Made by a program: the position numbers and the translations under genes | DNA from: Curtobacterium sp. 458 | Lineage (GTDB): Bacteria > Actinomycetota > Actinomycetes > Actinomycetales > Microbacteriaceae | Assembly: GCF_030406605.1 (NCBI RefSeq) | Contig: NZ_CP129104.1 | Coordinates: 1,252,072-1,316,071, forward strand | Reading direction: 5' to 3' | DNA length: 64,000 nucleotides | In this document: piece after piece, positions 2,642-57,848 of the stretch | Layout: every line of letters starts with the position of its first letter | How positions within the stretch are numbered: position 1 is the first letter of the stretch | Notes under the pieces: generated by a model | What the model was told of the DNA's origin: nothing | Database searches by the model: none | The model's input: only the letters and a program-made list of their open reading frames with translations

Positions 2642-2725
2642 GGCCTCCAGGCGGTACCGCCCGTCATCGGGTCGCGACGGTGCCGCCCGGCAGCGGGTCG
2701 CGACGGTACCGGCTTGGAGGCGCGG
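2642..2725. repeat. Dispersed palindromic repeat, two half copies facing each other
   Basis: Between the convergent map and LCP genes, a GCCTCCAGGCGGTACC arm near 2644-2659 faces a GGTACCGGCTTGGAGGC arm near 2705-2721, with short internal repeats GGGTCGCGACGGT in between. The arms belong to the CCTCCAG family seen elsewhere in this window. A bidirectional terminator role is an inference from position; there is no T-tract. Confidence 0.6.
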
Positions 2726-2745
2726 CTCGTCCCCGCCCCGTCGGT

Positions 2746-4023
2746 TCAGTTGCCGACGGAGCAGGTCTGTTCGTCGGCGTTCTGTCCGGTGATCGAGGAC
2801 GGCAGCGGCGTCGCGGTGGCCGTCGGCGTCGCCGACGACGCGGCCGCCGAGGACGACGTCCCGCCGGAGGAGGACGTCCCGCCGGAGGAGGACGTTGCGC
2901 CGGAGGAGGACGTTCCGCCGGAGGACGACGACGTCCCCGCGCTCGTCGACTCCTCGGACGCGCGTCCGGTGGTCGAGTCGGAGAGCGACGTCCGCTGGTC
3001 GGTCTGCAGCGCGACGTTGAGGACGTGTGCTGCTTCCTGCGACACGATCACCCGAGCGGTGTCCGCGGGGTCATCCACGACCGGGTACTGCACGAAGAGC
3101 ATGTTCGACGTGCTCATGCCCCGGAGGGTGGTGGCGAGGCCGACGAGGCTACGGGCCTTCGCGAGGCCGTCGGAGAGCGTCATGTTCTGCAGGGCTGCCG
3201 TCGCGAGGCGGTAGAGCGTGACCGGGTCGGACAGGGTGTCGCCCGAGGTGATCTTCCGGAGCAGCGCCGAGAGGAACACCTGCTGCGAGCTGATGCGGGC
3301 GAGGTCGCTGCCGTCCCCGACGCCGTGGCGGGTGCGGAGGAACGCGAGCGCGTCGGAGCCCTGGAGCGTGTGCTCGCCGGCCGTGAGGTGGAGTCCGGTG
3401 TAGGTGTCGTTGATCGGCTGGGCCACGCAGACGTCGACGCCGCCGAGCGCGTTGGACATCGAGATGACGCCGTCGAAGGTGATGAGTCCGGCGTAGGGGA
3501 TGCGGAGTCCGGTGAGGTTCTCGACAGTGTCGACGACGCAGGAGACCCCGCCGTTGCCGAGTGCGGTGTTGAACTGCGCCGAGGTCGACGCCGGGTACGT
3601 CGTCCCGGTGGCGGGGTTGCTGCACGCCGGGATCGGCACCATGAGGTCGCGCGGGAAGCTCACGGCGGTCAACTGCTGGTGGTCCTGCGAGATGTGCACG
3701 AGGATCGTGACGTCGTTCCGGGCGCCCTGCACGTCCTCGTCGGAGTCGAACTGGCCGATGCGGGTGTCGCTGCCGATGAGGAGGATGTTCGCGCCACCGG
3801 GCATCGCGGTGATGTCGGCGGTGTCCGCGACCTGCTGGTCGTCCTTGCTGAGCGCGACGGTCTTCGGCTTCGTCGCGAGTGTCCCACCGGCGATCGCGGC
3901 CACGCTGGTGCCGCTGACGAGGGCGACCGCCAGGACGGACGCGACGATCCCGAGGGCCGACGCCCAGGCGCGACGACGGGGCAGGCGTCCGTGGCGGGCC
4001 AGGGGGCCGCGGGTCTTCGGCAC
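2746..4023 (-). CDS. LytR-CpsA-Psr (LCP) family cell-wall glycopolymer transferase
   Basis: LCP proteins attach glycopolymers such as teichoic acids or arabinogalactan to peptidoglycan outside the membrane. The 425-residue product has a basic N-terminus, one membrane segment at about residues 20-44, then the LCP domain with [10 protein letters not shown] (about 79-88), [10 protein letters not shown] and the conserved SFPRD arginine. The GTG start at 4023 has a GGAGAG ribosome site six bases upstream, preferred over a longer frame. The C-terminus is a low-complexity Ser/Gly/Thr tail encoded partly by an 18-bp tandem repeat. Its reverse placement between map and infA breaks the usual operon. 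Exact glycopolymer substrate is not readable. Confidence 0.9.
2861..2932. repeat. 18-bp tandem repeat in the LCP gene (about 4 units)
   Basis: Four consecutive 18-bp units, starting CCGCCGGAGGAGGACGTC, lie inside the LCP gene near its 3' end. Read on the minus strand they encode the Ser-Ser-Ser-Gly-Gly-Thr type repeats of the tail. The units differ by one to three bases. Confidence 0.85.
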
Positions 4024-4163
4024 GGTTCTCTCCGTTCGGTGGGCTGCCGTGACACGGTACGGCCGGTGCACTCGAGACGGCCCAGAACGGGCCAGGCAAC
4101 CACTGTGGAACGTTCAGGGTCCCGCCGGGAAGCCCCAGGTCGAGGGGCCGGAGCCGTCCGCAC

Positions 4164-4192
4164 TTGGCAATCGGGCGTCTGGCAAGTAGGAT
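4164..4192 (+). promoter_or_regulatory. Sigma-70-type promoter of the infA-rpmJ-rpsM-rpsK operon
   Basis: A TTGGCA -35 box (4164-4169) and a TAGGAT -10 box (4187-4192) are separated by exactly 17 bases, and lie about 95 nt upstream of infA. A GGTGTG (4201-4206) / CACACC (4254-4259) inverted pair in the leader could fold. Confidence 0.8.
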
Positions 4193-4287
4193 CGATGTTT
4201 GGTGTGTCATGCCCTCCGGGCGTGGCGCCCGACCCGCAGACCGGCTCGGGGATCACACCGGTAATCCAACCAAGCGACAGTGAGGCT

Positions 4288-4509
4288 ATGGCCAAGAAAG
4301 ACGGCGTCATCGAGATCGAGGGCTCGGTGCTCGAAGCTCTGCCCAACGCGATGTTCCGCGTTGAGCTGACCAACGGACACAAGGTCCTCGCGCACATCTC
4401 CGGGAAGATGCGCCAGCACTACATCCGCATCCTCCCCGAGGACCGCGTGATCGTGGAGCTGAGCCCGTACGACCTGACCCGCGGCCGGATCGTCTACCGC
4501 TACAAGTGA
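4288..4509 (+). CDS. infA: Translation initiation factor IF-1
   Basis: The 73-residue product is a full-length IF-1, a single S1/OB-fold domain that occupies the ribosomal A site during initiation. The sequence [12 protein letters not shown] and the ending GRIVYRYK are diagnostic. The ATG at 4288 follows a weak GTGAGG ribosome site. It starts an operon with rpmJ, rpsM and rpsK and has its own good promoter at 4164-4192, which is expected since the LCP gene separates it from map. Confidence 0.97.
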
Positions 4510-4579
4510 TCCGCGAGCTGGAAAGGAACGGCCCGGCGAACCCGCCGAGCACGAAGCCAGCGAGCACGAGGAACCAACC

Positions 4580-4696
4580 ATGAAGGTCAACCCCAGCGTC
4601 AAGCCCATCTGCGAGCACTGCCGAGTGATCCGCCGGAAGGGCCGCGTCATGGTGATCTGCAAGAGCAACCCGCGCCACAAGCAGCGCCAGGGCTGA
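4580..4696 (+). CDS. rpmJ: 50S ribosomal protein L36 (zinc-binding form)
   Basis: The 38-residue protein begins [14 protein letters not shown] and ends HKQRQG. Cys11, Cys14, Cys27 and His32 form the zinc ribbon, so this is the C+ (zinc-dependent) form. A GAGGAACC ribosome site precedes the ATG. It sits between infA and rpsM in the standard order. Confidence 0.96.
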
Positions 4697-4731
4697 GCTC
4701 CCAGCAGGACCCACAACTCAACACCGAACAC

Positions 4732-4800
4732 GCAGTACCAGAACCCGCGGCTCCGGCAGCGGGGGACACCTCGGGGCGGAGGCCCGGGCACCGGTACTGC
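4732..4800 (+). promoter_or_regulatory. Structured leader between rpmJ and rpsM
   Basis: GCAGTACC (4732-4739) and GGTACTGC (4793-4800) are perfect complements enclosing a GC-rich segment with a smaller CCCGC/GCGGG hairpin. The fold would sit about 35 nt upstream of rpsM. It could be a ribosomal-protein feedback leader or simply a spacer hairpin; no known RNA family is recognised. Confidence 0.45.
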
Positions 4801-4835
4801 GCCACACCTCCACCAACCACAGGAGCAGCCAGCAC

Positions 4836-5210
4836 ATGGCACGTCTAGCAGGCGTCGACATCCCGCGCGAGAAGCGCGTGGAGATCGCACTCACGTACAT
4901 CTACGGCGTCGGCCGTACCCGGTCCGTCCAGGCCCTGGCCGAGACCGGCATCTCCGGCGACATCCGCGTCAAGGACCTCACCGACGACCAGCTCGTCGCC
5001 CTCCGCGACTACATCGAGGGCAACTTCAAGGTGGAGGGTGACCTCCGCCGCGAGGTCGCCGCCGACATCCGCCGCAAGGTCGAGATCGGTAGCTACGAGG
5101 GTCTCCGCCACCGTCGTGGTCTCCCGGTGCGCGGTCAGCGCACCAAGACCAACGCGCGTACCCGCAAGGGACCGAAGCGCACCGTGGCAGGCAAGAAGAA
5201 GGCCCGATAG
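4836..5210 (+). CDS. rpsM: 30S ribosomal protein S13
   Basis: The 124-residue product of the 30S head contacts the P-site tRNA and the 50S subunit. It begins [19 protein letters not shown], and the C-terminus is a basic tail ([17 protein letters not shown]) that reaches toward the tRNA. The length is normal. rpsK follows nine bases later with its ribosome site AGGAG inside the gap. The usual actinobacterial rpsD gene is not present between rpsK and rpoA. Confidence 0.97.
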
Positions 5211-5219
5211 GAGATCATC

Positions 5220-5618
5220 ATGGCTACCCCCAAGACTGCCGCGCGCAAGCCGCGTCGCAAGGAGAAGAAGAACGTCGCCGTGGGCCAGGCCCACATCAAG
5301 AGCACGTTCAACAACACGATCGTCAGCATCACCGACCCGTCGGGTGCCGTCCTCAGCTGGGCGTCCTCGGGTGCCGTCGGCTTCAAGGGTTCGCGCAAGT
5401 CGACGCCGTTCGCGGCGCAGCTCGCCGCCGAGTCCGCCGCGCGTCAGGCGCAGGAGCACGGCGTCAAGAAGGTCGACGTCTTCGTGAAGGGTCCGGGTTC
5501 GGGCCGCGAGACCGCGATCCGTTCCCTCCAGGCCGCCGGCCTCGAGGTCGGTTCGATCAACGACGTCACGCCGCAGGCGCACAACGGGTGCCGCCCGCCC
5601 AAGCGTCGCCGCGTCTGA
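5220..5618 (+). CDS. rpsK: 30S ribosomal protein S11
   Basis: The 132-residue protein of the 30S platform carries the family sequences [19 protein letters not shown] and [16 protein letters not shown], ending PPKRRRV. The ATG follows an AGGAG ribosome site. The next gene, rpoA, is separated by 205 bases containing hairpins, so rpoA may be differentially expressed. Confidence 0.97.
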
Positions 5619-5632
5619 CGCGAGGAGCAACC

Positions 5633-5677
5633 GGCCGTTCCCCGCTCGTTCCCTGACCGGGGCGAGCGGGGCCGGCC
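5633..5677 (+). terminator. Hairpin between rpsK and rpoA (possible attenuator)
   Basis: CCCCGCTCG (5640-5648) and CGAGCGGGG (5663-5671) form a nine-bp stem, extended by GGCC on both flanks. There is no T-tract, so termination is uncertain. A second small hairpin (CGGGGCC/GGCCCCG, 5754-5772) follows. Confidence 0.5.
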
Positions 5678-5782
5678 ATTCCTGGTCGTTCGATCGCGCA
5701 CGACGAGCCGTTCGCGGCCGTCGGTGCGCGTGATCACAACTCAACAGACCCGTCGGGGCCCGGTCGGCCCCGTCGTACCGCC

Positions 5783-5804
5783 GAGTGTCATATAGCGGAC
5801 ACTC
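5783..5804 (+). promoter_or_regulatory. Perfect inverted repeat just upstream of rpoA
   Basis: GAGTGTC (5783-5789) and GACACTC (5798-5804) flank an eight-base AT-rich centre ATATAGCG, ending about ten bases before the rpoA ribosome site. It could be an operator, a hairpin in the leader, or contain a -10 (TATAGC). No regulator can be named. Confidence 0.5.
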
Positions 5805-5823
5805 CGCCGAAAGGAATCCCACA

Positions 5824-6819
5824 GTGCTCATTGCACAGCGCCCCACCCTGACCGAGGAGTCGATCTCCGAGCACCGCTCGCGCTTCGTCATCGAGCCGCT
5901 CGAGCCGGGCTTCGGTTACACCCTCGGCAACTCGCTGCGCCGCACGCTCCTCTCCTCGATCCCCGGCGCGGCCGTCACCAGCATCCGCATCGACGGCGTC
6001 CTCCACGAGTTCAGCACCGTTCCCGGTGTCAAGGAAGACGTCACCGAGATCATCCTCAACATCAAGAGCCTCGTCGTCTCCAGCGAGCACGACGAGCCGA
6101 TCACCGCGTACCTGCGCAAGCAGGGTGCCGGTCAGGTCACCGCGGCGGACATCTCCGCCCCGGCCGGCGTCGAGATCCACAACCCGGACCTCGTCATCGC
6201 GACCCTGAACGACACCGCGCGGTTCGAGCTCGAGCTCACGATCGAGCGTGGCCGTGGCTACGTGTCGGCGACGCAGAACCGCTCGGAGTTCTCCGAGGCC
6301 GGTCAGATTCCGATCGACTCGATCTACTCGCCGGTCCTCAAGGTCACCTACCGCGTCGAGGCGACGCGTGCCGGTGAGCGCACGGACTTCGACCGCCTGG
6401 TCGTCGACGTCGAGACGAAGCCGGCGATCTCGCCGCGCGACGCCATCGCCTCGGCGGGCCGCACGCTGGTCGAGCTGTTCGGTCTCGCCCGCGAGCTGAA
6501 CACGGCGGCCGAGGGCATCGAGATCGGCCCCGCGCCGGTCGACGCGGTGCTCTCGAACGAGCTGCAGACCCCCATCGAGGACCTCGACCTGTCGGTCCGC
6601 AGCTACAACTGCCTCAAGCGGGAGGGCATCAACACGGTGTCCGAGCTCGTCGCCCTCTCGGAGACGCAGCTCATGAACATCCGCAACTTCGGTCAGAAGT
6701 CGGTGGACGAGGTCAAGGACAAGCTCACCGAGCTCGGCCTGTCCCTCAAGGACACCGTCCCCGGATTCGACGGCGCCCACTTCTACAGCGGGTACGACGA
6801 GGACGAGTCCAACAACTGA
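5824..6819 (+). CDS. rpoA: DNA-directed RNA polymerase alpha subunit
   Basis: Alpha dimerises to nucleate RNA polymerase assembly and its C-terminal domain contacts UP elements and activators. The GTG start gives 331 residues beginning [13 protein letters not shown], exactly like other actinobacterial homologues, and has a GAAAGGA ribosome site; the in-frame ATG 39 bases upstream is less likely. The N-terminal domain (about 1-230) contains [19 protein letters not shown]; the C-terminal domain (about 245-315) contains [16 protein letters not shown] and the helix-hairpin-helix [15 protein letters not shown]. It ends in a short acidic tail. Confidence 0.97.
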
Positions 6820-6882
6820 CCTCGCGCGCGAGCGCACGCGTGCTGAGTCAGCGCGCACCACCATCACCACTGGAGAACTGAC

Positions 6883-7455
6883 ATGCCGAAGCCCACCAAG
6901 GGCCCCCGCCTCGGTGGCGGTCCCGCCCACGAGCGCCTGCTCCTGAGCAACCTCGCCAACGCCCTCTTCACGCACGGCCGCATCACCACGACCGAGACGA
7001 AGGCCAAGCGCCTCCGCCCGGTCGCCGAGCGGCTCATCACGTTCGCGAAGCGCGGCGACCTGCACGCCCGTCGTCGTGTGATCAGCATCCTGCGCGACAA
7101 GTCCGTCGTGCACACGCTGTTCACCGAGATCGCCCCGCAGGTCGAGGACCGTCAGGGCGGCTACACCCGCATCACGAAGCTCGGTTTCCGCAAGGGCGAC
7201 AACGCTCCCCTCGCGTCGATCGAGCTCGTCCTCGAGCCGGTGTCGGGCAAGCCCGCCCCGGTGAAGCGCGACGCGGCTCCGGCCGCCGCCGCCCCGGTCG
7301 AGGAGCCGGCCGCTGACGAGGCCCCGGTCGACGAGACCGAGACCACCGAGGAGTCCGCGCCGGTCGAGGCCGAGACCGAGACCGAGGCTGCCGCCGAGGT
7401 CGAGGACGACGCTGCCGCCAAGGCGGACGACACGAAGGCCGACGACGCCAAGTAG
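6883..7455 (+). CDS. rplQ: 50S ribosomal protein L17 with acidic C-terminal extension
   Basis: Residues 1 to about 120 are the L17 core ([36 protein letters not shown]). The protein has 190 residues: the last ~65 are an Ala/Glu/Asp-rich disordered tail, a type of extension common in actinobacterial L17. It ends the alpha operon and is followed 21 bases later by a strong terminator. truA, its usual downstream neighbour, is about 7.4 kb away because of an inserted block. Confidence 0.96.
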
Positions 7456-7476
7456 TCACCAGCACCATACGAGAAA

Positions 7477-7502
7477 GCCCCCGCGACGCACGTCGCGGGG
7501 GC
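7477..7502 (+). terminator. Terminator of the ribosomal/rpoA operon
   Basis: GCCCCCGCGACG (7477-7488) is perfectly complementary to CGTCGCGGGGGC (7491-7502), giving an 11-bp stem with a four-base loop, followed by TTCCTCGT. It closes the operon ending in rplQ. Confidence 0.85.
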
Positions 7503-7553
7503 TTCCTCGTGTCCGGTGCCGGGAAGCGGGTCGGGACGCGACCGCGCGTCGGA

Positions 7554-7590
7554 CGGGAGGCACGGTGCCGGCCCGCCACGCGCCTCCCGG
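7554..7590. repeat. Dispersed palindromic repeat, paired copy
   Basis: GGGAGGCACGGTGCC (about 7555-7569) faces CGCGCCTCCCG (about 7579-7589). The arms match the GGAGGCACGG / CCGTGCCTCC family found at many other sites in this window, here in the CCC (not CCAG) variant. Confidence 0.6.
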
Positions 7591-7658
7591 CCCTCCCCGC
7601 GCAGCACGGACCGGACGGCCACGGCTCACAGGCGCACCCACGTAACCTCGCCGACGCC

Positions 7659-8780
7659 ATGGCACGAGCAGAACGCATCACGGGAGCCGGACGCCGCATC
7701 TGGCGGTGGAGCCGCGACTCCGGCACCCAGCCGCGCCTGCTGCTCGCCGCGAAGGCGGCTCTGGCCGCGACCATCGCGTGGGTCCTCGCCAAGTACGCCC
7801 CGGGCGTCGCGGCCGAGTACCCGTACTACGCGCCCCTCGGCGCGATCGTCGCCATGCGGACGACCGTGTTCGCCGGCATCCGTTCGGGCGTGCAGACGCT
7901 CGTGGGCATCACCCTCGGGATCGTCATCGCCTGGGTGACCATGCTCGTCGGCGACCCCGGCGTGATCGCGGTCGCCCTCGCGGTCGGCATCGGTGTCCTC
8001 GTGAGCGGGTTCCGGATCCTCGGTGAGGGGTACTCCTGGGTGCCGATGGCCGCGCTCTTCGTGCTGCTCGTCGGCGGCGGCAACGCGGAGGGCTACTCGT
8101 TCGCGTACATCGTGCAGATGGCCATCGGGATCGCGATCGGCCTCGCCGTGAACTTCGCCGTGTTCCCGCCGCTGCACTTCTGGGACGCGGAGCGCCGCAT
8201 CGACCAGGTGAACGCGGTGCTCGCGCAGCAGCTCGACGACCTGGCGGACGTGCTCGTGGACGGTGAGCCCGACACCGCCGCGTGGGACCGGCAGCAGGAG
8301 CGGCTCGACAAGGCCATCGCGGACGTGCGGGACCGGGTCGCCACCGCACAGGAGAGCCGGCGGATGAACCCGCGTGGTGCGCTCCGTGGTTCCCGAGCGC
8401 GCCTGCAGTCGGACGGTGCCCGGTTCCGTGCGGTCGAACGTGCTGCCTGGTACACGACGGACCTCACCGAGCTCGTCGCGCGCTCCGGCCCTGTGGCCGA
8501 CAACGTCGGACGGCCGGACCCCGCCTTCGCCGAGCCGTTCGCGGCCGCACTAAGGCAGGTGGCGTGCGTGGTCCGGGGCGACTGCCCGGCGGAGGAGGGG
8601 GACGAAGCCCTCGCGACGCTCGAGGCGGCGCTCGACGCGAGTCGGTCGAACCCGTCCCAGGTCACCGTGACGGCGAGTGCGATCGTGGCGCTGCGGGGTG
8701 TCATCGAGTCCGAGAAGCGGGCGACGGAGGACATCGACACCGACACCGGGCCGTTCGGGAAGAAGCAGACCGGACGGTGA
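7659..8780 (+). CDS. FUSC / aromatic-acid-exporter-like membrane protein
   Basis: The 373-residue protein has an N-terminal membrane half (about residues 25-175, several segments, including LLAAKAALAATIAWVLAKYA and FAYIVQMAIGIAIGLAVNFA) and a soluble, charged C-terminal half. This matches the FUSC/DUF939 family, whose members are linked to export of aromatic acids; the substrate here cannot be read. The ATG at 7659 is chosen over longer frames because the family sequence begins there; a TAACCT hexamer ends ten bases upstream, so the transcript may be nearly leaderless. It is the first gene of the accessory block between rplQ and truA. Confidence 0.75.
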   Translation: MARAERITGAGRRIWRWSRDSGTQPRLLLAAKAALAATIAWVLAKYAPGVAAEYPYYAPLGAIVAMRTTVFAGIRSGVQTLVGITLGIVIAWVTMLVGDPGVIAVALAVGIGVLVSGFRILGEGYSWVPMAALFVLLVGGGNAEGYSFAYIVQMAIGIAIGLAVNFAVFPPLHFWDAERRIDQVNAVLAQQLDDLADVLVDGEPDTAAWDRQQERLDKAIADVRDRVATAQESRRMNPRGALRGSRARLQSDGARFRAVERAAWYTTDLTELVARSGPVADNVGRPDPAFAEPFAAALRQVACVVRGDCPAEEGDEALATLEAALDASRSNPSQVTVTASAIVALRGVIESEKRATEDIDTDTGPFGKKQTGR

Positions 8781-9747: not shown

Positions 9748-12700
9748 GTGACCGCGCGTCCCCGTCTCGCCGTCCTCGGACCCGTGCTGGTCGAGGGGAC
9801 GACTGGGACGCCCACCGCCGTCACCGGCGCGCTCGCGCGGTCGTTCCTCACCGCGCTGGTCCTGGCGCCCGGGCTCGGCGTGTCGACCGACTCGCTCATC
9901 GACGGCCTCTGGCCCGGCGAGCAGCCCCGTGCGGCACGGGCGGCGCTCCAGACCATGGTGTCGCGCCTGCGCCGGACGACCGCCGACGGGCTCGTCCGCT
10001 CCACCACGACGGGATACGCCCTCGGGTGCGACGCGGACGACGTCGACCTGCTCCGGGCGGAGCGCGCGGCGTCGTCGACCGACGTCGGTGCCGTGGAAGG
10101 CGCACTCGTGCTCTGGCGGGGTGCTCCCGGCGAGGACGTCGACGGTGACCTCGGCGACGCGCTCGCCGCCCGGGCCGCCACCGCACGCGGCGCCCTGCGT
10201 CGAACGCTCGGAGCAGTCCTGCTCGAGGCCGGACGAGCGGACGAGGCGGTCGCGGTCTGGCGGTCCGCCGCCGAGGCGGACCCCTTCGACGAGGTCACGG
10301 TCGCGGGCACGATGCGTGCGCTCGACGCTGCCGGCCGACCGGCCGAGGCGCTCGCCGTGTTCGCCGCGCACCGTGACCGGCTGGTCGACGAACTCGGTGC
10401 CGACCCCTCCGGCGACCTCGTCCGACTGAACGCGGACCTCCTGCGCCGGTCGGCAGACCAGGTGGGGCGGGCGCGACACATCGGCCTGCGGGCTGCGCCG
10501 AACCGGTTGGTCGGACGGGAGGCCGACCTCGCCGCCGTCACGGACCTCCTGTCCCGGGAGCGGTTGGTCACGGTCCTCGGTGCGGGTGGGCTCGGGAAGA
10601 CCCGCCTCGCCCAGGCGGTCGCGGCGGCGCTGCCGGACGACGTCGGCGTCGTCGTGGTGGAGCTCGCGTCCGTCGCGGCGCCCGAGGACGTCCTCCCCGC
10701 GCTCGGTGCGGTGCTCGGGATCGTGGAGGTCAGATCGGCCCGGACGCTGCGCGACGCCGTGGTGAGCGACCTGTCGGCCAGGGTCGTCAGATCGCTGTCG
10801 GACGGGCCGACGGTGCTCGTGCTCGACAACTGCGAGCACCTGCTCGAGCCGGTCGCCACGCTGACCGCCGAGCTGCTCGCCGCGGCCCCGGACCTGCGGG
10901 TGCTCGCCACGTCGAGGGCGCCCCTCGCGATCGCCGGTGAGGTCGTGGCGCCCCTGGCGCCCCTGCCGGTCGAGGCGGACGGTGCCGCGGTGCGCCTGTT
11001 CACCGAGCGTGCCCGCGCGGCCCGCCCCGGCGCGGTGCTGCCGGTGGACGCCGTCCGCCGGATCTGCACCCGTCTCGACGGCTCACCCCTCGCGATCGAG
11101 CTCGCCGCCGCACGGATCCGAGGCATGAGCACGGACGAGATCGAACGGCGTCTCGACGACCGCTTCGCGTTGCTGCGGGGCGGCGACCGGAGCGCCCCGG
11201 AACGGCACCGCACCCTGCTCGCGGTCATCGAGTGGAGCTGGCACCTGCTCGACGACGGCGCCCGCGACCTCCTGCCCCGACTCGCGCTCTTCCCCGACGG
11301 GCTCGCGGTGGACGCGGTGGAGGCGGTCGCGGCCCCGGATCAGGCCGACGCACTGGACGATCTCGCCGACCTCGTCGAGCAGTCCCTCGTGCAACTCGTC
11401 GAACACGAGGGCGAGCCGGTCCGCTACCGCCTGCTCGAGACCGTCCGGGAGTTCGGCGCGGCGCGGCTCCGCGACCTCGGACGCACCGACGAGGTCCGAC
11501 GTGCGATGCTCGGGTGGGCCCACGGCTTCGGCACCACCCACGACCTGTTCGCCATCGTCGGCCCGGAGCAGCTCGGCCGGTTCCACGAGGTCCGCCGCGA
11601 AGCCGACAACCTCGTCGGGCTCCTGCGATGGGCGCTCCGCGACGAGGACGCCGGGGCGACCGCGGCGGTGTTCGCTGCCCTCGGTGCTTACTGGACGCTC
11701 CGTGGCACGCAGGAGGAGATCACCGCGGTCGCTCCGGACGTCGTGACCGTCCTGCGGTCCCGCGAGCCGGCAGCGGCAGACCGCACCGCCGCGCACATCG
11801 GGCTCGTCGTCGCGGGTGGCGCGTCCGCGTTCGACGACCGCCGCACGACCGCGTGGGCCGTGTCGACGCTCCGCCGCTGGCGCCGGACCGCGACCGCCGA
11901 CGATCCCGTCGTCGACGCCCTCGCCGCCCTCTTCGTCGAGCTCGGCCGCCCGGATGCCGCGACTGCACTCCTCGCCGGGTTCCGTGCCGATCCGGACGAC
12001 CGCGTCGCCTGCATCGGGAACCTGCTCAGCGCCCCGCTCGCCGAGAACGGCGGGGAACCCGCCGAGGCGCTCCGCTTCGCCGTTGCCGCCCAGGACCTCG
12101 CGAACCGTGCCGGCGACGTGTGGACCACCGGGACCTCCGCGGTCACGATGACGCAGCTCCTCGCGCAGACGGGCCGGTACACGGATGCCTTGGACGCGGC
12201 CGAACGGGCACGGGGACGCCTCGAGCTCCTGGGCGCCGACGACGACCTGTCCGAGATCGCGTGGTCAGTCGGGCTCTGCGCCGCCGCGACCGGGGACGTC
12301 GACCGAGCCAGGTCGGTCGCCCGCGAGCTGCAGCACCGACCGGCCAGCGGTCGTGGCCCCGAGGCCGACGGTGCGATGGTTGCCCTGATCGCGCTGGCGA
12401 TCGAGGCGGAGTGCCGGCGGGCGGAGGGCGACCCGGCAGCGGCCGCCGACCGGTACACGGCGGCGTGGGAGGCGGCATCGGAGCGGCGCGGACCCGCCCC
12501 GAACTGGCGGCTGATGGCCGGCGCCGCCCGCATCGCCGCGGTCGACGAGACCGCGGGCGGTCTCGACAGGCTCCGGCCGGCCGAGCGAGCCGTCGCGCGA
12601 CGGATGCGGAACGCGACACTCGCCCTGCTCCGGGTCCGGCCGTGGTGGACCGACCTGCCCGTGGTCGGGACGACCCTCGCCGGACTGGCGCTCGCCGCCG

Positions 12701-19367: not shown

Positions 19368-19413
19368 ACGGACTGGAGGCGCGGTGCCAGCGGGCACCGT
19401 GCCTCCAGTCCGT
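19368..19413. repeat. Dispersed palindromic repeat, complete hairpin (21-bp arms)
   Basis: The arms 19368-19388 and 19393-19413 pair over 21 positions with one G-U type mismatch and an AGCG loop. They contain CTGGAGGCGCGGTGCC and GGCACCGTGCCTCCAG, the fullest example of the repeat family in this window. It follows the nuclease gene and could terminate it, though no T-tract follows. Confidence 0.85.
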
Positions 19414-21960: not shown

Positions 21961-22006
21961 GGTCCGCCCGCCGAACCCTGCTGCTGCGACCGGCGCGAAC
22001 CGCCGC

Positions 22007-22068
22007 CGCACAACCAAAGGCCCTCGGAACCACGTCATCGCGTGGTTCCGAGGGCCTTTGGTTGTGCG
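22007..22068. terminator. 62-nt perfect palindrome between convergent glmM and coaA
   Basis: The arms 22007-22034 and 22041-22068 pair perfectly over 28 bp around a six-base loop (TCATCG). Arms begin CGCACAACCAAAG and end CTTTGGTTGTGCG. It lies midway between two convergent genes, so a bidirectional terminator is likely. A second, diverged 62-nt element with the same ends lies at 61455-61516. Confidence 0.85.
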
Positions 22069-22117
22069 AGCGCGATCCGCGCCGCGTGCGCGTGCTCCCG
22101 CGCGAGCCCGCCGCGCG

Positions 22118-23062: not shown

Positions 23063-23114
23063 GGGGACGAGCGTACCGACGGGAGGCCCGGATCACGTGA
23101 GCAGGCGCGCTCCC

Positions 23115-23137
23115 GTGCACCGTGCCTCCAGTCCGGA
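23115..23137. repeat. Dispersed palindromic repeat, single copy
   Basis: GTGCACCGTGCCTCCAGTCC lies in the gap between the coaA start and the 3' end of the peroxidase gene. It matches the right arm of the 19368-19413 hairpin. Only one long arm is present, with a small CTCC/GGAG hairpin at its end. Confidence 0.7.
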
Positions 23138-27264: not shown

Positions 27265-27280
27265 GCGCCTCCAGGCCGGA
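27265..27280. repeat. Dispersed palindromic repeat, single copy before alr
   Basis: GCGCCTCCAGGCCGGA lies in the 73-bp gap between acpS and the first alanine racemase gene. Its right flank supplies the GGAGGGGG that can act as the ribosome site of the racemase. Confidence 0.65.
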
Positions 27281-35870: not shown

Positions 35871-35887
35871 CCGGGAGGCACGGTGTG
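35871..35887. repeat. Dispersed palindromic repeat, single copy before rarD
   Basis: CCGGGAGGCACGGTGTG lies between the groES terminator and the rarD start. It is the GGGAGGCACGG variant of the family. Confidence 0.6.
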
Positions 35888-36900: not shown

Positions 36901-36918
36901 GCCGTGCCTCCCGGCCGG
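36901..36918. repeat. Dispersed palindromic repeat, single copy after rarD
   Basis: GCCGTGCCTCCCGGCCGG lies 15 bases after the rarD stop codon, in the inverted orientation relative to the copy just upstream of rarD (35871-35887). The two copies therefore flank rarD as an inverted pair. Confidence 0.6.
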
Positions 36919-36966: not shown

Positions 36967-37019
36967 CGCGAAAGCGACAGTCCCCCGCGGTTGAACTGCG
37001 GGGGACTGTCGCTTTCGCG
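36967..37019. terminator. Perfect 22-bp-stem hairpin between convergent rarD and binding-protein genes
   Basis: The arms 36967-36988 and 36998-37019 pair perfectly over 22 bp around a nine-base loop. A 14-bp direct duplication (CTGGTCGTGCCTAC, 37022-37035 and 37036-37049) follows, and the second copy contains the stop codon of the binding-protein gene. A bidirectional terminator is the likely role. Confidence 0.8.
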
Positions 37020-43663: not shown

Positions 43664-44496
43664 CCGACGCACCGAACGCTGCGGACGCGAGCCGCGCCTC
43701 CAGTCCGGAAACGCCGCAGGCGCCGGAAACGCCGCAGGCGGCGACCGCCACCCTGGACCGCGAGCCGGTCCTGAGCGCGAAGAACCTCGTCGCCGGCTAC
43801 CTGCCCGGGGTGAACATCCTCAACGGCTGCGACCTCGACTGCTACCCCGGCGAGCTCATCGGCATCATCGGCCCGAACGGCGCCGGCAAGTCGACGCTCC
43901 TCAAGGCGCTCTTCGGCCTCGTCTCCATCCGTGAGGGGTCCGTGAGCCTGCAGGGTGAGGACATCACGAACCTCAAGGCGAACAAGCTCGTCCAGGCGGG
44001 CGTCGGCTTCGTCCCGCAGACGAACAACGTGTTCCCGTCGCTCTCCATCGAGGAGAACCTGCAGATGGGGCTCTACCTCCGGCCCCGGAAGTTCGCCGAG
44101 CGCCTCGAGGTCATCTACGACCTCTTCCCGGTGCTCGCGCAGCGCCGCAACCAGCGGGCGGGCTCGCTCTCCGGCGGTGAGCGGCAGTCGGTCGCGATGG
44201 CCAGGGCGCTCATGATGGACCCGAAGGTGCTGCTCCTCGACGAGCCGAGCGCCGGACTGTCTCCCGTTCGGCAGGACGAGACGTTCATCCGCACACGCCG
44301 GATCAACAAGGCCGGTGTGTCGATCATCATGGTGGAGCAGAACGCGCGACGCTGTCTGCAGATCTGCGATCGTGGGTACGTGCTCGACCAGGGGAGGAAC
44401 GCGTACTCGGGCACCGGGCGTGAGCTCGCCGACGACCCGAAGGTCATCGAGCTGTACCTGGGCACGCTCGCCAAGGACGTCGACTCGGCGCGGTAG
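43660..44496 (+). CDS. livF: Branched-chain amino acid ABC transporter ATP-binding protein LivF
   Basis: The 278-residue ATPase has Walker A GPNGAGKSTLLKALFG, the Q-loop FVPQTNNVFPSLS, signature LSGGERQSVAMARAL and Walker B LLLDEPSAGLSP; Gln replaces the switch His (VEQNARR), as usual for LivF. The first ~38 residues are an unusual extension, ASRASSPETPQAPETPQA, that coincides with a copy of the dispersed DNA repeat and an 18-bp tandem duplication. It ends the operon and is followed by a terminator. Confidence 0.93.
   Translation: MTDAPNAADASRASSPETPQAPETPQAATATLDREPVLSAKNLVAGYLPGVNILNGCDLDCYPGELIGIIGPNGAGKSTLLKALFGLVSIREGSVSLQGEDITNLKANKLVQAGVGFVPQTNNVFPSLSIEENLQMGLYLRPRKFAERLEVIYDLFPVLAQRRNQRAGSLSGGERQSVAMARALMMDPKVLLLDEPSAGLSPVRQDETFIRTRRINKAGVSIIMVEQNARRCLQICDRGYVLDQGRNAYSGTGRELADDPKVIELYLGTLAKDVDSAR
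43692..43708. repeat. Dispersed palindromic repeat inside the livF coding region
   Basis: CCGCGCCTCCAGTCCGG lies in codons about 11-17 of livF, in frame, encoding Arg-Ala-Ser-Ser-Pro. It matches the arm of the intergenic hairpin at 19393-19413 with one base difference. Confidence 0.7.
43705..43740 (+). repeat. 18-bp tandem duplication at the start of livF
   Basis: Two perfect copies of CCGGAAACGCCGCAGGCG (43705-43722 and 43723-43740) encode the repeated Pro-Glu-Thr-Pro-Gln-Ala. Confidence 0.9.
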
Positions 44497-44616: not shown

Positions 44617-44632
44617 CGGCCTGGAGGCACGG
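44617..44632. repeat. Dispersed palindromic repeat, single copy
   Basis: CCGGCCTGGAGGCACGGG lies between the liv terminator and a small membrane-protein gene. Confidence 0.65.
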
Positions 44633-50898: not shown

Positions 50899-50936
50899 CG
50901 CACCGTGCCTCCAGACCGGCCTGGAGGCGCGGTGCG
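50899..50936. repeat. Dispersed palindromic repeat, complete hairpin between convergent genes
   Basis: Arms 50899-50914 and 50921-50936 pair over 16 bp with one G-U type mismatch and an ACCGGC loop. They contain CGCACCGTGCCTCCAG and CTGGAGGCGCGGTGCG. It lies between glpD and the convergent membrane-protein gene and could terminate both. Confidence 0.85.
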
Positions 50937-51467: not shown

Positions 51468-51589
51468 GCCGCGACCGTAGCCCCGCCGCGCGGCCACCCG
51501 CATCCGTCCGGAGGACGATGCCCACCCGCCGGAATGGTGCGCGCCTCCCGGTGGTTATCATCGTGGTACTCGGAAAGGGAGGCCATCTC

Positions 51590-52120: not shown

Positions 52121-52123
52121 CGC

Positions 52124-53614
52124 GTGCACCTGGGCGGTGAGCTGCTCACCATCGGTGTGCTCTTCGTCATCGCCTACGTCCTCGGACGCCTCGGCAAGAC
52201 CATCGGGCTCCCGGCGATCCCGATCTACATGGTGGTCGGACTCATCGCGAGCCCGCACACCCCGTGGATCGGCCTCAACGTCGAGTCGCACACGATCGAG
52301 CTCATCGCGACGTTCGGGCTCGTGCTGCTCCTGTTCAACCTCGGACTCGAGTTCGACCAGGAGGAGTTCTACGGCAACGCCGGCAAGCTCCTCGTGTCCG
52401 GTGGCACGTACGTCGCCATCAACATGGGGATCGGCTTCGCGTTCGGGTTCTCGCTCGGCTGGGGCACCCGCGAGGCGCTGATCATCGCGGGCATGACCGC
52501 GACCTCGTCGAGTGCGATCGTCACGAAGCTCCTCATCGAGCTGCGGCGGCTCGCGAACGACGAGACGCCGATGATCCTCGGTGTCACCGTCATCGAGGAC
52601 GTCTTCATCGCCATCTACCTGGCGATCGTGTCGGTCGTGCTCTCGGGCGACACGAACATCTGGGGCGTGGTCGGCAAGCTCGCGCTGGCGTTCGGCTTCC
52701 TCATCGTGATGTTCACCCTCGCCCGGTTCGCCGGCAAGTGGGTGTCCAAGATCTTCGCCACGCGTGACGACGAGCTCTTCACCGTGCTGTTCTTCGGCCT
52801 CGCGGTGATGTTCGGCGGGATCGGCGAGATCCTCGGCGTGACCGACGCGATCGGTGCGTTCGTGATCGGCCTGCTCTGCGGTGCCACGCGCTACCGAGAC
52901 CGCATCGAGCAGCTCGCCCTCCCGATGCGCGACGTGTTCGCGGCGTTCTTCTTCGTGAACTTCGGCCTCGGACTCGACCTGTCGACCTTCGGCGAGGTGC
53001 TCTGGCCGGTCCTCGGCGCGATCGGCATGACCGTCGTGCTCAACGCCGTCGCCGGTCAGATCGTCGCCCGCATGAACGGGTTCAACGTCCAGCAGGGGAT
53101 CAACACCGCCGTCATCCTGGTGAACCGTGGCGAGTTCGCGCTGATCCTCGCGACGCTCTCGGCTGCCGCCGGCCTGGAGGCGCGGATCACCGCGTTCGCG
53201 GGCCTCTACGTCCTCGTCATGGCCGTCCTGGGTCCGCTGCTCGCCGTGAACTCGGACCGGATCGGCCGCCTCGTGGTGCGTCCGGCGCGCGTCGCGCGGC
53301 TGCGCCAGCGCCTCCGCGCGCGGCTCGGGGGCCGCGGCGGCGCCGTGCCCGTCGGAGCGTCCGGACCGGCCCTCGACGAAGCGATCGACTCGGCCGCGGA
53401 GGCCGGGGTCGCCGACGAGGACGCCTCCCGGGCCGCCCGTCGTGCCGAACGCGACCGGCAGTTCGCGGAGGAGTTCGCCCTCGTGGAGGCCGCTGGGAGG
53501 GAAGAGCGCGAGAATGGTGCACCGGAGCCCCGCGACGAACCCGTGACCTCGTCGGTGGAGATCCCCGCCGAGCGTCCCGAACGCCCGGTGCGACAGCGCG
53601 ATCCGGAGTACTGA
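52124..53614 (+). CDS. khtU: KhtU-like CPA2 cation/proton antiporter
   Basis: The 496-residue protein is a CPA2 antiporter (GLPAIPIYMVVGLIASPH, LNLG-type FNLGLEFDQEEF, TSSSAIVTKLLIEL, GVTDAIGAFVIGLLCG) with 12 or more membrane segments, followed by an Arg-rich and Glu-rich cytoplasmic tail of about 100 residues. GTG start three bases after khtT. A copy of the GGCCTGGAGGCGCGG repeat occurs inside the coding region near 53171, encoding Gly-Leu-Glu-Ala-Arg. Confidence 0.9.
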   Translation: MHLGGELLTIGVLFVIAYVLGRLGKTIGLPAIPIYMVVGLIASPHTPWIGLNVESHTIELIATFGLVLLLFNLGLEFDQEEFYGNAGKLLVSGGTYVAINMGIGFAFGFSLGWGTREALIIAGMTATSSSAIVTKLLIELRRLANDETPMILGVTVIEDVFIAIYLAIVSVVLSGDTNIWGVVGKLALAFGFLIVMFTLARFAGKWVSKIFATRDDELFTVLFFGLAVMFGGIGEILGVTDAIGAFVIGLLCGATRYRDRIEQLALPMRDVFAAFFFVNFGLGLDLSTFGEVLWPVLGAIGMTVVLNAVAGQIVARMNGFNVQQGINTAVILVNRGEFALILATLSAAAGLEARITAFAGLYVLVMAVLGPLLAVNSDRIGRLVVRPARVARLRQRLRARLGGRGGAVPVGASGPALDEAIDSAAEAGVADEDASRAARRAERDRQFAEEFALVEAAGREERENGAPEPRDEPVTSSVEIPAERPERPVRQRDPEY

Positions 53615-53619
53615 TACAG

Positions 53620-54399
53620 ATGTGGGCCGTTGCCCGACGACCGAAGTGGATCGCGCTGCTGCTGCTCGCGCTCGTGCTCGCGGCGGTGTTCGCGTTCCTG
53701 GGCAAGTGGCAGCTCGAGCGGAGCATCCAGAACGGCAAGCCCCTGCCCGCGACCACCGAGACGCAGCGGACGCTCGACGACGCGCTCGCTCCGATGAAGC
53801 CCGTCACCGAGGCGCTCGCCGGGCAGAAGGTCACCGTCACCGGCACCTTCGTCGCGGGTGACACCACCGTCCTGACCGGGCGGAGCGGCGGTGGGACGTA
53901 CCAGACCGTCGGACACCTCGTCGACTCCGGGACCGGCGCGAGCCTCCCGGTCGTGATCGGCTGGTCCGACCAGCGGTCCGCAGCCGTCGCCGGCGGTGAC
54001 CGGCTCACCGACGGGCAGACGATGACCATCGAGGGGCGGCTCTACCCGGAGGAGTCCCCGGACCAGGACACCTACGCCGAGGGCGAGTACTCCGCCGTGG
54101 CGCCGGCCCGGTTCGTCAACACGTGGAAGCAGTTCGACGACCGCATGTACCTCGGGTACGTGGTCGCCGATGGTTCCACCGCGAAGGCGGCCGACCTCGG
54201 CACCATCGCCGACCGTGCACCGACGCGCGAGGTCCAGTTCGACTGGCTCAACCTCTTCTACGCGGTCGAGTGGGCCGTGTTCGCGGGGTTCGCCGTGTTC
54301 CTCTGGTACCGCTTCGTGAAGGACGCCTGGGAGCGCGAGGAAGAGGACCGCCGTGAGCGCCTCCACAGCTCCGACGGGGCGCTCGTCGACCGACGGTAG
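53620..54399 (+). CDS. SURF1-family protein
   Basis: SURF1 proteins assist cytochrome c oxidase assembly. The 259-residue protein has an N-terminal membrane helix (WIALLLLALVLAAVFAFLGKWQLER), an extracytoplasmic domain and a second helix near the end (FYAVEWAVFAGFAVFLWYRF). The GKWQLER motif is typical. It starts six bases after khtU and may be co-transcribed. Confidence 0.9.
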   Translation: MWAVARRPKWIALLLLALVLAAVFAFLGKWQLERSIQNGKPLPATTETQRTLDDALAPMKPVTEALAGQKVTVTGTFVAGDTTVLTGRSGGGTYQTVGHLVDSGTGASLPVVIGWSDQRSAAVAGGDRLTDGQTMTIEGRLYPEESPDQDTYAEGEYSAVAPARFVNTWKQFDDRMYLGYVVADGSTAKAADLGTIADRAPTREVQFDWLNLFYAVEWAVFAGFAVFLWYRFVKDAWEREEEDRRERLHSSDGALVDRR

Positions 54400-54409
54400 G
54401 ATGGCCGAT

Positions 54410-54856
54410 ATGGCTCTGACCGTCCGACCCCGCGACGTCCCGAAGATCCCGGGAGCGGTGAAGTGGTACCGCGTCTCCGCGTACATCACCGGTGTGCTGC
54501 TCCTGGCCCTCGTGGTCGAGGTCATCATCAAGTACACCCCGCTGCAGCTCGAGATGCAGCTCGGCAACGGCCCGTTCTTCGTCCCGAACGGCACGGCCGG
54601 TGAAGCCCCGGGCACGTTCAACCTGTCGATCGCGATCCTCATCGCGCACGGTTGGCTGTACGTCCTCTACCTCTTCACGGACTTCCGTCTGTGGAGCATC
54701 ATGCGCTGGAGGCCCTCGCGCTTCCTGCTCATCGCCCTCGGCGGCATCATCCCGTTCATGTCCTTCGTCGTCGAGCACCGCATGCAGCAGAAGGCCATGG
54801 ACACCTACCACGAGCTGACCGCTGCCCAGCAGCGTGAGAAGGAGGCCGCTCGGTGA
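54410..54856 (+). CDS. DUF3817-family membrane protein
   Basis: The 148-residue protein has three or four membrane segments ([59 protein letters not shown]), as in the DUF3817 family that commonly sits beside guaA in actinobacteria. Function is unknown. TAGGAT ends seven bases before the chosen ATG; an ATG at 54401 is possible. It overlaps guaA by four bases. Confidence 0.85.
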
Positions 54857-56439
54857 GCGAGACCGACCAGCGTCCCGTCCTCGTCGTCGACTTCGGAGCC
54901 CAGTACGCGCAGCTCATCGCTCGCCGCGTCCGCGAGGCCAACGTCTACAGCGAGATCGTCCCCCACTCGATCACCGCGGACGAGGTGAAGGCGAAAGACC
55001 CCTCGGCCATCGTGCTGTCCGGTGGTCCGTCGTCCGTCTACGAACCGGGTGCGCCGTCGCTCGACGGCGACATCCTCGACCTCGGCGTCCCGGTGCTCGG
55101 CATCTGCTACGGCTTCCAGGCCATGGCGACCGCGCTCGGCGGCGAGGTCGCCCAGACCGGTCAGCGCGAGTACGGCGCGACCGACGTCAGTGTGAACGAG
55201 ACCGGCACGGGCAGTGTCCTCCTCGGCGACCAGCCGGCGTCGCAGGTCACGTGGATGTCGCACGGCGACTCCGTGGCGAAGGCCCCCGAGGGCTTCGAGG
55301 TGCTCGCATCGAGCGCGTCGACCCCCGTCGCGGCGTTCGCGTCCGACGAGCGCAAGCTCTACGGCGTGCAGTGGCACCCCGAGGTCAAGCACTCGGCGTT
55401 CGGCCAGGCCGTGCTCGAGAACTTCCTCCACCGCGCCGCCGGGCTGCCCGGTGACTGGAACTCCGCCAACGTCATCGACGAGCAGGTCGCGCGCATCAAG
55501 GAGCAGGTCGGTTCCGCGCGGGTCATCGCCGGGCTCTCCGGCGGCGTCGACTCTGCCGTGGCCGCGGCTCTCGTGCACAAGGCCGTCGGCGACCAGCTCA
55601 CGTGCGTGTTCGTCGACCACGGGCTCCTCCGCGCCGACGAGCGCAAGCAGGTGGAAGAGGACTACGTCGCCTCCACCGGTGTCCGGCTCGTGACGGTCGA
55701 CGCCGAGCAGCAGTTCCTCGACGCCCTCGCGGGGGTGAGCGACCCGGAGCAGAAGCGCAAGATCATCGGGCGTGAGTTCATCCGTACCTTCGAGGCCGCC
55801 GCCGAGGCGCTCGTGCTCGAGGCTCGCGGAGACGACGAGGCGGGCGAGGTCAAGTTCCTCGTGCAGGGCACCCTCTACCCCGACGTGGTCGAGTCCGGCG
55901 GTGGCTCCGGCACGGCGAACATCAAGTCGCACCACAACGTCGGCGGTCTGCCCGAGGACATGACCTTCGAGCTCGTCGAGCCGCTGCGCACCCTGTTCAA
56001 GGACGAGGTGCGCGCCGTCGGCCGCGAGCTCGGGCTGCCCGAGGTCATCGTCGGACGCCAGCCGTTCCCCGGTCCGGGGCTCGGCATCCGCATCGTGGGC
56101 GAGGTCACGAAGGACCGCCTCGAGCTGCTCCGTGCCGCCGACAAGATCGCCCGCGAGGAACTCACCGCGGCCGGCCTCGACGAGGAGATCTGGCAGTGCC
56201 CGGTCGTCCTGCTCGCCGATGTCCGCTCCGTGGGTGTCCAGGGCGACGGCCGCACGTACGGCCACCCGATCGTGCTCCGTCCGGTGTCCTCCGAGGACGC
56301 CATGACCGCCGACTGGACGCGCCTGCCGTACGACACCCTCGCGAAGATCTCGAACCGGATCACGAACGAGGTGCCGGACGTGAACCGCGTCGTGCTCGAC
56401 GTCACGTCGAAGCCGCCGGGGACGATCGAGTGGGAGTAG
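54853..56439 (+). CDS. guaA: GMP synthase (glutamine-hydrolysing)
   Basis: GuaA converts XMP to GMP. The 528-residue protein has a class I amidotransferase domain with nucleophile Cys85 (GICYGFQAM) and QWHPEVKHS, an ATP pyrophosphatase P-loop GLSGGVDSA (near 227), and the C-terminal dimerisation domain ending [12 protein letters not shown]. With guaB and guaB3 in the same window, it completes the guanine branch. A GTG start overlaps DUF3817, and a strong terminator follows. Confidence 0.97.
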
Positions 56440-56455
56440 TCACTCCCTGACGCCC

Positions 56456-56490
56456 GAGGGCCCGGCGCGCATCTTGCGTGCCGGGCCCTC
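56456..56490 (+). terminator. Terminator of guaA
   Basis: GAGGGCCCGGCGCGC (56456-56470) and GCGTGCCGGGCCCTC (56476-56490) form a 15-bp stem with one G-U pair and a five-base loop, followed by GTGCGTCC. Confidence 0.85.
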
Positions 56491-56532
56491 GTGCGTCCGG
56501 TGTGTTCCCTGCGGGCCATTCCTCCGGCGGGC

Positions 56533-56634
56533 AAGACTCCCCGCTTGCTCGGCGTCGATCGGTCACGAAACGTCGCTCAGCGTCGTGGAGACCGACCTTT
56601 CGTGACCGCTGGGAATCCGCATGCGGGGAGTCCT
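56533..56634. repeat. Nested inverted repeats (about 100 nt) in the guaA-yccA gap
   Basis: GACTCCCCGC (56535-56544) pairs with GCGGGGAGTC (56623-56632); inside it GGTCACGAAACGTCG (56561-56575) pairs with CGACCTTTCGTGACC (56593-56607), one mismatch. The 354-base gap 56440-56793 otherwise holds only the guaA terminator and no gene that I can support. Confidence 0.75.
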
Positions 56635-56793
56635 GACCGCGGTCCGGCCGAGTCCAGCCGTGTCGGGGGAGCTCGGATTCGGGCTGCTCGGCGTCGACCC
56701 CGGCATGCGCGGATCCCGCACGCGTGGCCCCGCGCACGACGAAGGGCCCCGGCGTGTTCGCCGGGGTCCTCTTGGTCGTGCTGCGCGCGAGTG

Positions 56794-57645
56794 CTAGTTG
56801 CGCGAGCTGCTCGCGATGATGGCGAGGATGCGCAGGATCTCGAGGTACAGCCACACCAGGGTGACGATGAGGCCGAACGCCGCGGTCCACGCGTAGATCC
56901 GGGGAGCGCCGCGCTGGACGCCCGTCTTGATCTGGTCGAAGTCGAGGATCAGCGAGTACGCCGCCATCAGCACGACGAAGATGCCGATCACGACACCGAG
57001 CGGGATACCGAAGACCGTCACGCCGAGCAGACCGAACGCGGTGTTCGTGACGCCGGTCCACATGAGCACGAGGTTCACCAGCGAGAACGCCATGTACCCG
57101 ACGATCGCGACCAGGAAGAACCGCGTTGCCTTCGGGGTCGCACGCACCTTGCCGGACGTGAAGAGCAACAGTGTCACCGCGAACACGCCGAGCGTGCCGA
57201 ACACTGCCTGGGTGACGATGCCGTCGAACGCGCTGTTGTAGTACGCCGAGATGCCACCGACGAAGAGACCCTCGAAGAAGGCGTAGGCGAGTACGAGCGC
57301 CGGCGACGGCTTCTTCTTGAAGGTGTTCACCAGGGCGAGGACGAACCCGACGATCGCGCCGACGATCCAGACGACCGGCGGGAGGTTCCAACCGGCCACC
57401 GCGCCGACGACGAGCACGCCGAAGGCGAGGAGCGTCTTGACGATGGTGTCCTCGTACGACATGCGGTCGGTGTCGACCGTGGAGGCCGACGGACGGTCGT
57501 ACATGTACTGCAGCTGATCAGGGGTCATCCCTTGCTGCGGCGTCTGACCCCAGCCAGCCTGCTGCTGTCCGGCGCCCGCGCCCCAGGCGTTCCGGCCCGC
57601 GTCGTTGAAGGCGGGGGACTGGTCGAAACCGGGCTTGAAGGCCAT
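56794..57645 (-). CDS. Bax inhibitor-1/YccA-family membrane protein
   Basis: The 283-residue protein has a Gly/Gln-rich soluble N-terminus (about 55 residues, GAGQQQAGWGQTPQQG) and seven membrane segments of the BI-1/YccA fold, ending with DFDQIKTGVQRGAPRIYAW, the loop carrying the fold's paired-aspartate-like region. Bacterial members are calcium-leak or protease-associated proteins; the role here is unknown. GAGAGG ribosome site upstream of the ATG, and a TAGGCT box at 57678-57683 on this strand. Confidence 0.88.
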   Translation of the reverse strand: MAFKPGFDQSPAFNDAGRNAWGAGAGQQQAGWGQTPQQGMTPDQLQYMYDRPSASTVDTDRMSYEDTIVKTLLAFGVLVVGAVAGWNLPPVVWIVGAIVGFVLALVNTFKKKPSPALVLAYAFFEGLFVGGISAYYNSAFDGIVTQAVFGTLGVFAVTLLLFTSGKVRATPKATRFFLVAIVGYMAFSLVNLVLMWTGVTNTAFGLLGVTVFGIPLGVVIGIFVVLMAAYSLILDFDQIKTGVQRGAPRIYAWTAAFGLIVTLVWLYLEILRILAIIASSSRN

Positions 57646-57830
57646 GGTGTCCTCTCATGGATGATTCGAGTCCTCTCAGCCTACGGATCAGGTGGCCCGG
57701 AAGGCTGTGGATTCGCGGCGAGCGGAACGGCTGTCCCGTGGTCGCCTGCGGCGATCGTCGCAGCCCCGGCTCGGAGTTCGCCGTACCGGGCCTGAGCACC
57801 TGACGGAGGTGGGCTGGAAGGCGGCGGCGA

Positions 57831-57848
57831 GCCGTGCCTCCAGGCCGG
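57831..57848. repeat. Dispersed palindromic repeat just before the phosphodiesterase gene
   Basis: GCCGTGCCTCCAGGCCGG ends at the -10-like TACCGT of the downstream gene, so the repeat abuts the predicted promoter. Confidence 0.65.

Follow-up and report, generated by a model that had tools for sequence, protein, structure and literature searches.

A 64,000-nucleotide stretch of the genome of Curtobacterium sp. 458 (contig NZ_CP129104.1, positions 1,252,072 to 1,316,071; here called the window) carries a dispersed palindromic repeat. With moderate confidence, sequence comparison places its complete copies in a genus-specific family of hairpins at gene 3' ends that is similar to the repetitive extragenic palindromes (REPs). 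In its complete form the repeat is a palindrome of ~48 bp, GACGGAC[G/T]GGAGGC-N-CG..CG-N-GCCTCC[C/A]GTCCGTC, built on the layout CGGAC[G/T]GGAGGC-N-CG-(14)-CG-N-GCCTCC[C/A]GTCCG, in which pairing often extends to GAC..GTC. Placement, predicted stability and conserved pairing fit a role for these hairpins as transcript terminators or stabilisers, which they probably are. An earlier, sequence-only reading of the window had noticed the repeat, but had missed that complete copies lie at the 3' ends of genes, and that single arms form a second, less clear population. By the named relatives of one of its nuclease genes, the window belongs to Curtobacterium, with C. luteum nearest.

Chance and base composition were ruled out as sources of the repeat by reversed-pattern and shuffle controls, which matter because the window is 71% G+C. 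The 12-mer core CCGTGCCTCCAG has 16 matches with at most one mismatch in the window (100 dinucleotide shuffles: mean 1.01, largest 5) and 136 exact copies in the whole genome (69 + 67), against 7 (6 + 1) for the reversed control. Among 299 Microbacteriaceae genomes, the exact core occurs in 4-227 copies in the seven of the same genus and in at most 4 in the other 292, and the 20-mer GGCACCGNGCCTCCAGNCCG was found in 64 of 66 Curtobacterium genomes (control 0). In 464 kb of the strain 458 genome, the looser 11-mer CG.GCCTCC[AC]G occurs 152 times: 99 copies lie in 45.8 kb of intergenic DNA, where shuffles average 1.38, and 51 in 419 kb of coding DNA, where synonymous shuffles average 19.3; the density in gaps is 18-fold higher. 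Outward-facing arms stand 25 bp apart 30 times, while any other spacing below 200 bp between neighbouring copies was seen once or twice. Several stretches of this sample were picked for containing listed matches, and genome-wide figures are therefore taken from whole-genome pattern counts. The sequence-only reading had proposed a genome-wide 12-mer count against controls and a comparison with relatives, and had described the sites as clustering in gaps; the repeat exceeds the controls, recurs in relatives and is mostly intergenic.

A strict pattern for the complete palindrome, GGAGGCNNG-N14-CNNGCCTCC, has 208 matches in the strain 458 genome and none when reversed. It is present in all 66 Curtobacterium genomes (control at most 1), 63 of which carry 70-262 copies; the low-copy genomes are G163, G295 and G336, with 11, 17 and 20. 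The 292 genomes of other genera in the family hold at most six copies each. One of these genera has 2-6 copies in each of six sampled genomes, and all nine copies fetched from it sit 18-39 nt after a stop codon.

Placement was scored with gene calls from a home-made caller, hairpins being defined by pairing plus GGAGG..CCTCC; locus L131, which overlaps another stretch of G299, was excluded from the placement, apex, arm-matching, T-content and flank counts. In 564 kb of the strain 458 genome, hairpins occupy 13 of 65 convergent gaps, 14 of 171 tandem gaps and none of 79 divergent gaps (p 6e-5 for the zero), and the median distance from a hairpin to the nearest facing stop is 12 nt, against 31 under random placement. 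The same order holds at 61 other Curtobacterium loci (51/142 convergent, 46/545 tandem, 3/168 divergent) and at 29 loci from other genera (2/59, 4/232 and 0/73, respectively), although rows from relatives are not independent because many loci are orthologous. In tandem gaps, 62 of 72 copies lie closer to the upstream stop. Other strong hairpins share this placement pattern.

Conservation of pairing was followed at the 3' end of ffh (TIGR00959) across 50 loci, 42 of which pass a palindrome test. One of these, L122 (G105), is homopolymer-rich, poor sequence whose pass is due to chance and which the alignment omits, so that 41 loci keep the hairpin; the eight not passing are L105, L118, L130 (contig ends), L127, L132, L133, L134 and L135. 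The sequence past the hairpin is often divergent between loci, and stem pairing is kept to about pair 24 before falling to background level. An alignment of 40 distinct rows, scored at 22 pairs, has 95% of its cells paired, a figure that counts sequences rather than events, and 12 of the 22 pairs are altered on both sides. The covariation value of 0.293 compares with 0.099 in shuffles; when the structure is slid, 36-46% of cells pair. In L123 the core itself has changed on both arms together. The hairpin of the nearest relative by Ffh (99.4%, L102) departs from that of strain 458 at many pairs, almost all of which have changed on both arms; this suggests that the element was replaced rather than altered step by step. 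The related genomes of L126 and L127 differ in that the hairpin is present in the former and absent from the latter, which keeps another downstream hairpin; since most ffh loci have the element, this is read as a loss. The stem ends in CGTC, which pairs with GACG of the other arm in most ffh copies. Homopolymer-rich, low-quality runs were also noted in two public assemblies, past ffh in L122 and at the end of L053.

The predicted RNA folds of three copies range from -50 to -64 kcal/mol. Each hairpin would act at an mRNA 3' end, ending or protecting transcripts, and in convergent gaps it would serve both sides. Several observations weigh against this reading, two of them, the missing T-tract bias and the palindromic centres, against a plain RNA terminator. 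There is no transcribed-strand bias towards a T-tail (2.8 vs 3.0 T per 14 nt, p 0.63, 72 tandem sites); T content past the stem is 2.5 per 12 nt against a background of 1.7, a slight excess found on both sides, and 2.2 for other hairpins. One of the 27 hairpins counted in strain 458 (L014 6454) does not resemble the family, one imperfect pair defined by motif geometry lies in a divergent gap of the same genome, and 2 of 145 geometry-defined copies are in divergent gaps. Another strong hairpin shares the gap in one case in strain 458 and in 17 among relatives, as well as at window positions 7469-7510; mutual exclusion of stereotyped and other hairpins, hinted at in the strain 458 genome with its single gap holding both, was rejected on the relatives' 17. 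Finally, 18 of 25 stereotyped hairpins have a palindromic centre against 4 of 27 others (Fisher p 5e-5), a symmetry that an RNA loop does not need. This points to the DNA level, where it could be the trace of a copying mechanism or a dyad binding site. A 5' flank CGACC precedes 22 of 67 tandem sites against 7 when mirrored, but this counts only as a hint, since one locus contributes many orthologous rows.

Copies also appear to exchange sequence. The two arms of one element match in 17 of 38 strain 458 copies (6.8 under random pairing) and in 51 of 107 other copies (12.4), and paralogues with one arm of each type are also present. An exact 32-mer with GTAC arms reaches 15-22 copies in eight Curtobacterium genomes and 0-6 in the other 58. 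In syntenic gaps from four genomes, the same gap can hold different apex types, or a simple form in one and a composite form in another. In the composite, ~66 nt are inserted into the right arm, and the junctions of this insert are the same at unlinked loci in three genomes. A search with a 131-bp composite stretch gave matches in all 66 genomes of the genus, and the best E was 1e-20 or lower in 58; at most 13 candidates were scored per genome, and weak matches may be simple hairpins. Twenty fetched copies of the ~108-bp composite (10 from strain 458, 10 from G302) all follow genes, 14 in convergent and 6 in tandem gaps. Its outer stem is GACGGACGGG/CCCGTCCGTC, the apex of its first hairpin is exchangeable and its middle hardly varies across 49 aligned copies; the folds predicted for three copies are only partly in agreement. 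Enterobacterial repetitive intergenic consensus (ERIC) elements and other bacterial miniature inverted-repeat transposable elements (MITEs) are dispersed palindromic units of ~100 bp in gaps; the composite is like them in size and dispersal, and its outer stem forms terminal inverted repeats at the 20 fetched loci, although to our knowledge the ERIC sequence is unrelated. Since exact variants and the composite recur at unlinked loci, sequence, whole units included, has been copied between loci. A second composite, with a different ~60-nt insert ending in GGCGTGGGCCCA or close to it, was seen in or beside hairpins at the following places:

L038, L043, L051 and L078, at ~12.9-13.1 kb
L152, at ~16.6 kb
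L031 and L074, minus strand

REP-like repeats are usually credited to REP-associated tyrosine transposases (RAYTs), and the sequence-only reading had suggested REP-type elements, possibly spread by a RAYT-like transposase located elsewhere. Its REP half stood, in that the repeat is dispersed, mostly intergenic, palindromic, far above chance and common to relatives. The enzyme did not: PF01797 (Y1/RAYT) has no match in the strain 458 genome or in any of the 66 Curtobacterium genomes, whereas 5 of 14 control genomes match. Copy number, palindromic form and extragenic placement would suit classical REPs, but REPs with a RAYT have a GTAG or CGTC tag left unpaired at one of their ends, according to extracts of PMC3733652, whereas most ffh copies of these elements are paired at both ends; with a high-copy, genus-wide family lacking the transposase in 66 of 66 genomes, RAYT-driven spread is hardly credible. 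In the 3'-end hairpin reading, one arm would be copied from the other by replication template switching, which creates and repairs hairpin stems (extracts of PMC8794818), the family would be kept uniform as copies overwrite one another by ectopic recombination, and no RAYT would be involved. As a further reading, we tentatively consider a family that homogenises itself without a dedicated transposase, in which these two processes would copy entire hairpins and single arms from locus to locus, and ~200 copies would have been adopted by the genus as standard two-way transcript ends; we think this possible, if on balance doubtful. Template switching fits the two-arm changes, and exchange between copies fits the clade-specific dialects and the composites. 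The elements might also be non-autonomous, MITE- or REP-like units moved by a non-Y1 enzyme, gene 3' ends merely tolerating insertion and any terminator role being secondary. The composite with its outer inverted repeats at unlinked loci, the clade-specific amplification of one exact variant and the steep genus boundary would all suit such mobility. It is nevertheless unlikely: eight aligned syntenic gaps from four genomes show no clean empty site or length step, no 5-bp direct repeats flank composites (only four copies fitted the strict pattern), and apex and arms are exchanged inside elements. The search for a mobiliser was limited to PF01797.

Two further explanations were weighed against the 3'-end hairpin reading. 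The repeat could be a DNA site with dyad symmetry, bound by a nucleoid-associated protein, gyrase or a regulator, with the hairpin as a side effect. Symmetry through the centre in stereotyped copies, constant GGAGGC arms around a variable apex and the existence of single arms, also in divergent gaps, would be expected of such a site; that the centre is symmetric yet not one sequence (AGCT, GGCC, GCGC), that L123 changed its core on both ffh arms together and that stop codons are so close make it improbable. A DNA-uptake signal, in which inverted pairs would be terminators and single copies would be kept by biased uptake, is suggested by analogy with Neisseria and Pasteurellaceae; the uptake-sequence hairpins of Neisseria are alike in placement (extracts of PMC1852404). 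The excess of single copies in coding sequence (below) and a ComEC-type protein speak for it, but 10 of 14 control genomes also have ComEC, which is widespread, in relatives many of the coding matches are conserved ungapped peptides that drift by substitution, and the single-arm flank is only partly distinct from that of paired arms; this is very improbable. The 3'-end hairpin family would in turn offer a clean system for how repeats spread and stay alike without a RAYT, and it bears on how high-G+C actinobacteria end transcripts without T-tracts.

The family resembles several known systems in part. REPs, bacterial interspersed mosaic elements (BIMEs) and REP doublets forming hairpins (REPINs) likewise comprise hundreds of short extragenic palindromes with mosaic composites and proposed roles in termination or mRNA stability (extracts of PMC2817692 and PMC3733652), but the Curtobacterium family lacks the Y1 transposase in 66 genomes and has a longer stem with both ends paired. 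The RAYT/REP hosts given in the extracts of PMC3733652 include no Actinobacteria. Uptake-sequence hairpins of Neisseria and Haemophilus are also stereotyped inverted pairs in tail-to-tail and tail-to-head gaps, accompanied by single copies (extracts of PMC1852404); the Curtobacterium hairpins differ in having no T-tail bias, palindromic centres and clade-specific apexes. Like intrinsic terminators, they are very stable, G+C-rich hairpins placed right after stops and nearly never in divergent gaps; unlike them, they show no T-tract bias, are near-identical at ~200 loci and have a symmetric centre. A known RNA family was rejected, since Rfam gave no match in the window, L009, L015 or L018 (gathering) or in L222, L224, L233 or L001 (E 0.1). 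Among the matches listed for open-licence PMC searches on Curtobacterium, Microbacteriaceae and Clavibacter repeats and terminators, there is no published account of this Curtobacterium palindrome family.

The sites in the window are as follows:

19368..19413, complete palindrome with 21-bp arms; an ExeM/NucH-type nuclease gene stops 28 nt before it, and rplM lies downstream
50899..50936, hairpin with reversed arm order (CCTCC first), convergent gap, one stop at a distance of 19 nt and the other at 6 nt
2642..2725, reversed arm order, 84 nt overall, convergent gap
7554..7590, full but imperfect element, with both arms present in the exact 25-bp geometry
23079..23137, long-loop form, two outward arms 41 bp apart between two minus-strand genes
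27265..27280, plus strand, single arm, called start 14 nt downstream
35871..35887, minus strand, single arm, tandem gap
36901..36918, plus strand, single arm, convergent gap, adjoining another hairpin at 36967-37019
43692..43708, plus strand, single arm close to where an ABC ATPase gene is called to start, coding by the gene calls used here
44617..44632, minus strand, single arm, tandem gap
51539..51550, plus strand, weaker single arm, divergent gap
53171..53185, minus strand, single arm within an antiporter-like gene, perhaps no more than ordinary coding sequence
57831..57848, plus strand, single arm, divergent gap, 12 nt upstream of a glycerophosphodiesterase-like gene, without a stable fold

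The sequence-only reading had counted at least 13 sites, and the core or a weaker variant is present at each of them, with 2642 and 51539 matching the looser 11-mer only. Its two complete hairpins are as described: the arms at 19368-19413 are 95% complementary, with a predicted RNA fold of -49.7 kcal/mol (z -9.6), and 50899-50936 folds as a long hairpin (-36.9 kcal/mol, z -5.2). Most of the sites are indeed single arms, and two, 43692 and 53171, fall in coding sequence; 7554 would be coding only if the far-upstream start of its open reading frame holds. That reading had overlooked the two-arm geometry of 7554-7590 and the arm pair with a longer loop at 23079-23131. The former lies beyond an ordinary terminator-like hairpin at 7469-7510, which follows the L17 gene, and its predicted fold is no better than shuffles (z -0.14). 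Of 80 relatives' loci, 41 were used as Curtobacterium-type (L053 being assigned only to Microbacteriaceae), 29 came from other genera and 10 were unused. Gap conservation was scored over 39 loci (without L053 and L055) by core counts only; among relatives in which the two flanking genes adjoin, 36 of 37 have at least one core in the 19368..19413 gap and 26 of 27 have at least one in the 23079..23137 gap, 13 of them two.

Single arms, which the 3'-end hairpin reading leaves unexplained, may be halves of elements or sites of another kind. A strict single-arm pattern finds 0-38 copies per Curtobacterium genome, 38 of them in strain 458 (control at most 1), and single arms occur in divergent gaps too. 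Their left flank, approximately GGCGGACGCGANCCG, is partly common to paired arms. As a single-arm marker it was rejected, with scores of at least 8/12 in 38 of 87 single and 35 of 93 partnered arms; the two groups differ only at 9/12 or more, with 26 of 87 against 13 of 93. An extended single-copy form occurs 28 times in coding sequence against 1.8 in shuffles. Insertion of single arms into genes was also rejected: of 76 coding matches lying 90 nt or more inside a gene, many encode conserved peptides with ungapped orthologues, and the motif in syntenic genes either drifts by substitution or sits in variable tails, so that the coding excess is weak evidence for insertion. At L013 3443-3475, two inward-facing cores lie in the coding region of L-aspartate oxidase (nadB), between its main parts, and could be an in-frame insertion.

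Other hairpin sets were encountered alongside this family. A second dispersed gene-end family, with arms carrying GCACAACCAAAG or a close variant, occurs at window positions 21991-22084 and 61455-61516 and at L014 ~10618-10683; in 37 of 37 relatives, the gap that holds its first copy, 21961-22117, is free of GGAGGC-type cores. A third gene-end set, built on CGAAAGCGACA / TGTCGCTTTCG, was seen at window positions 36967-37019, in L006, L009 and L020, and in a strain 458 gap past L015 10518.

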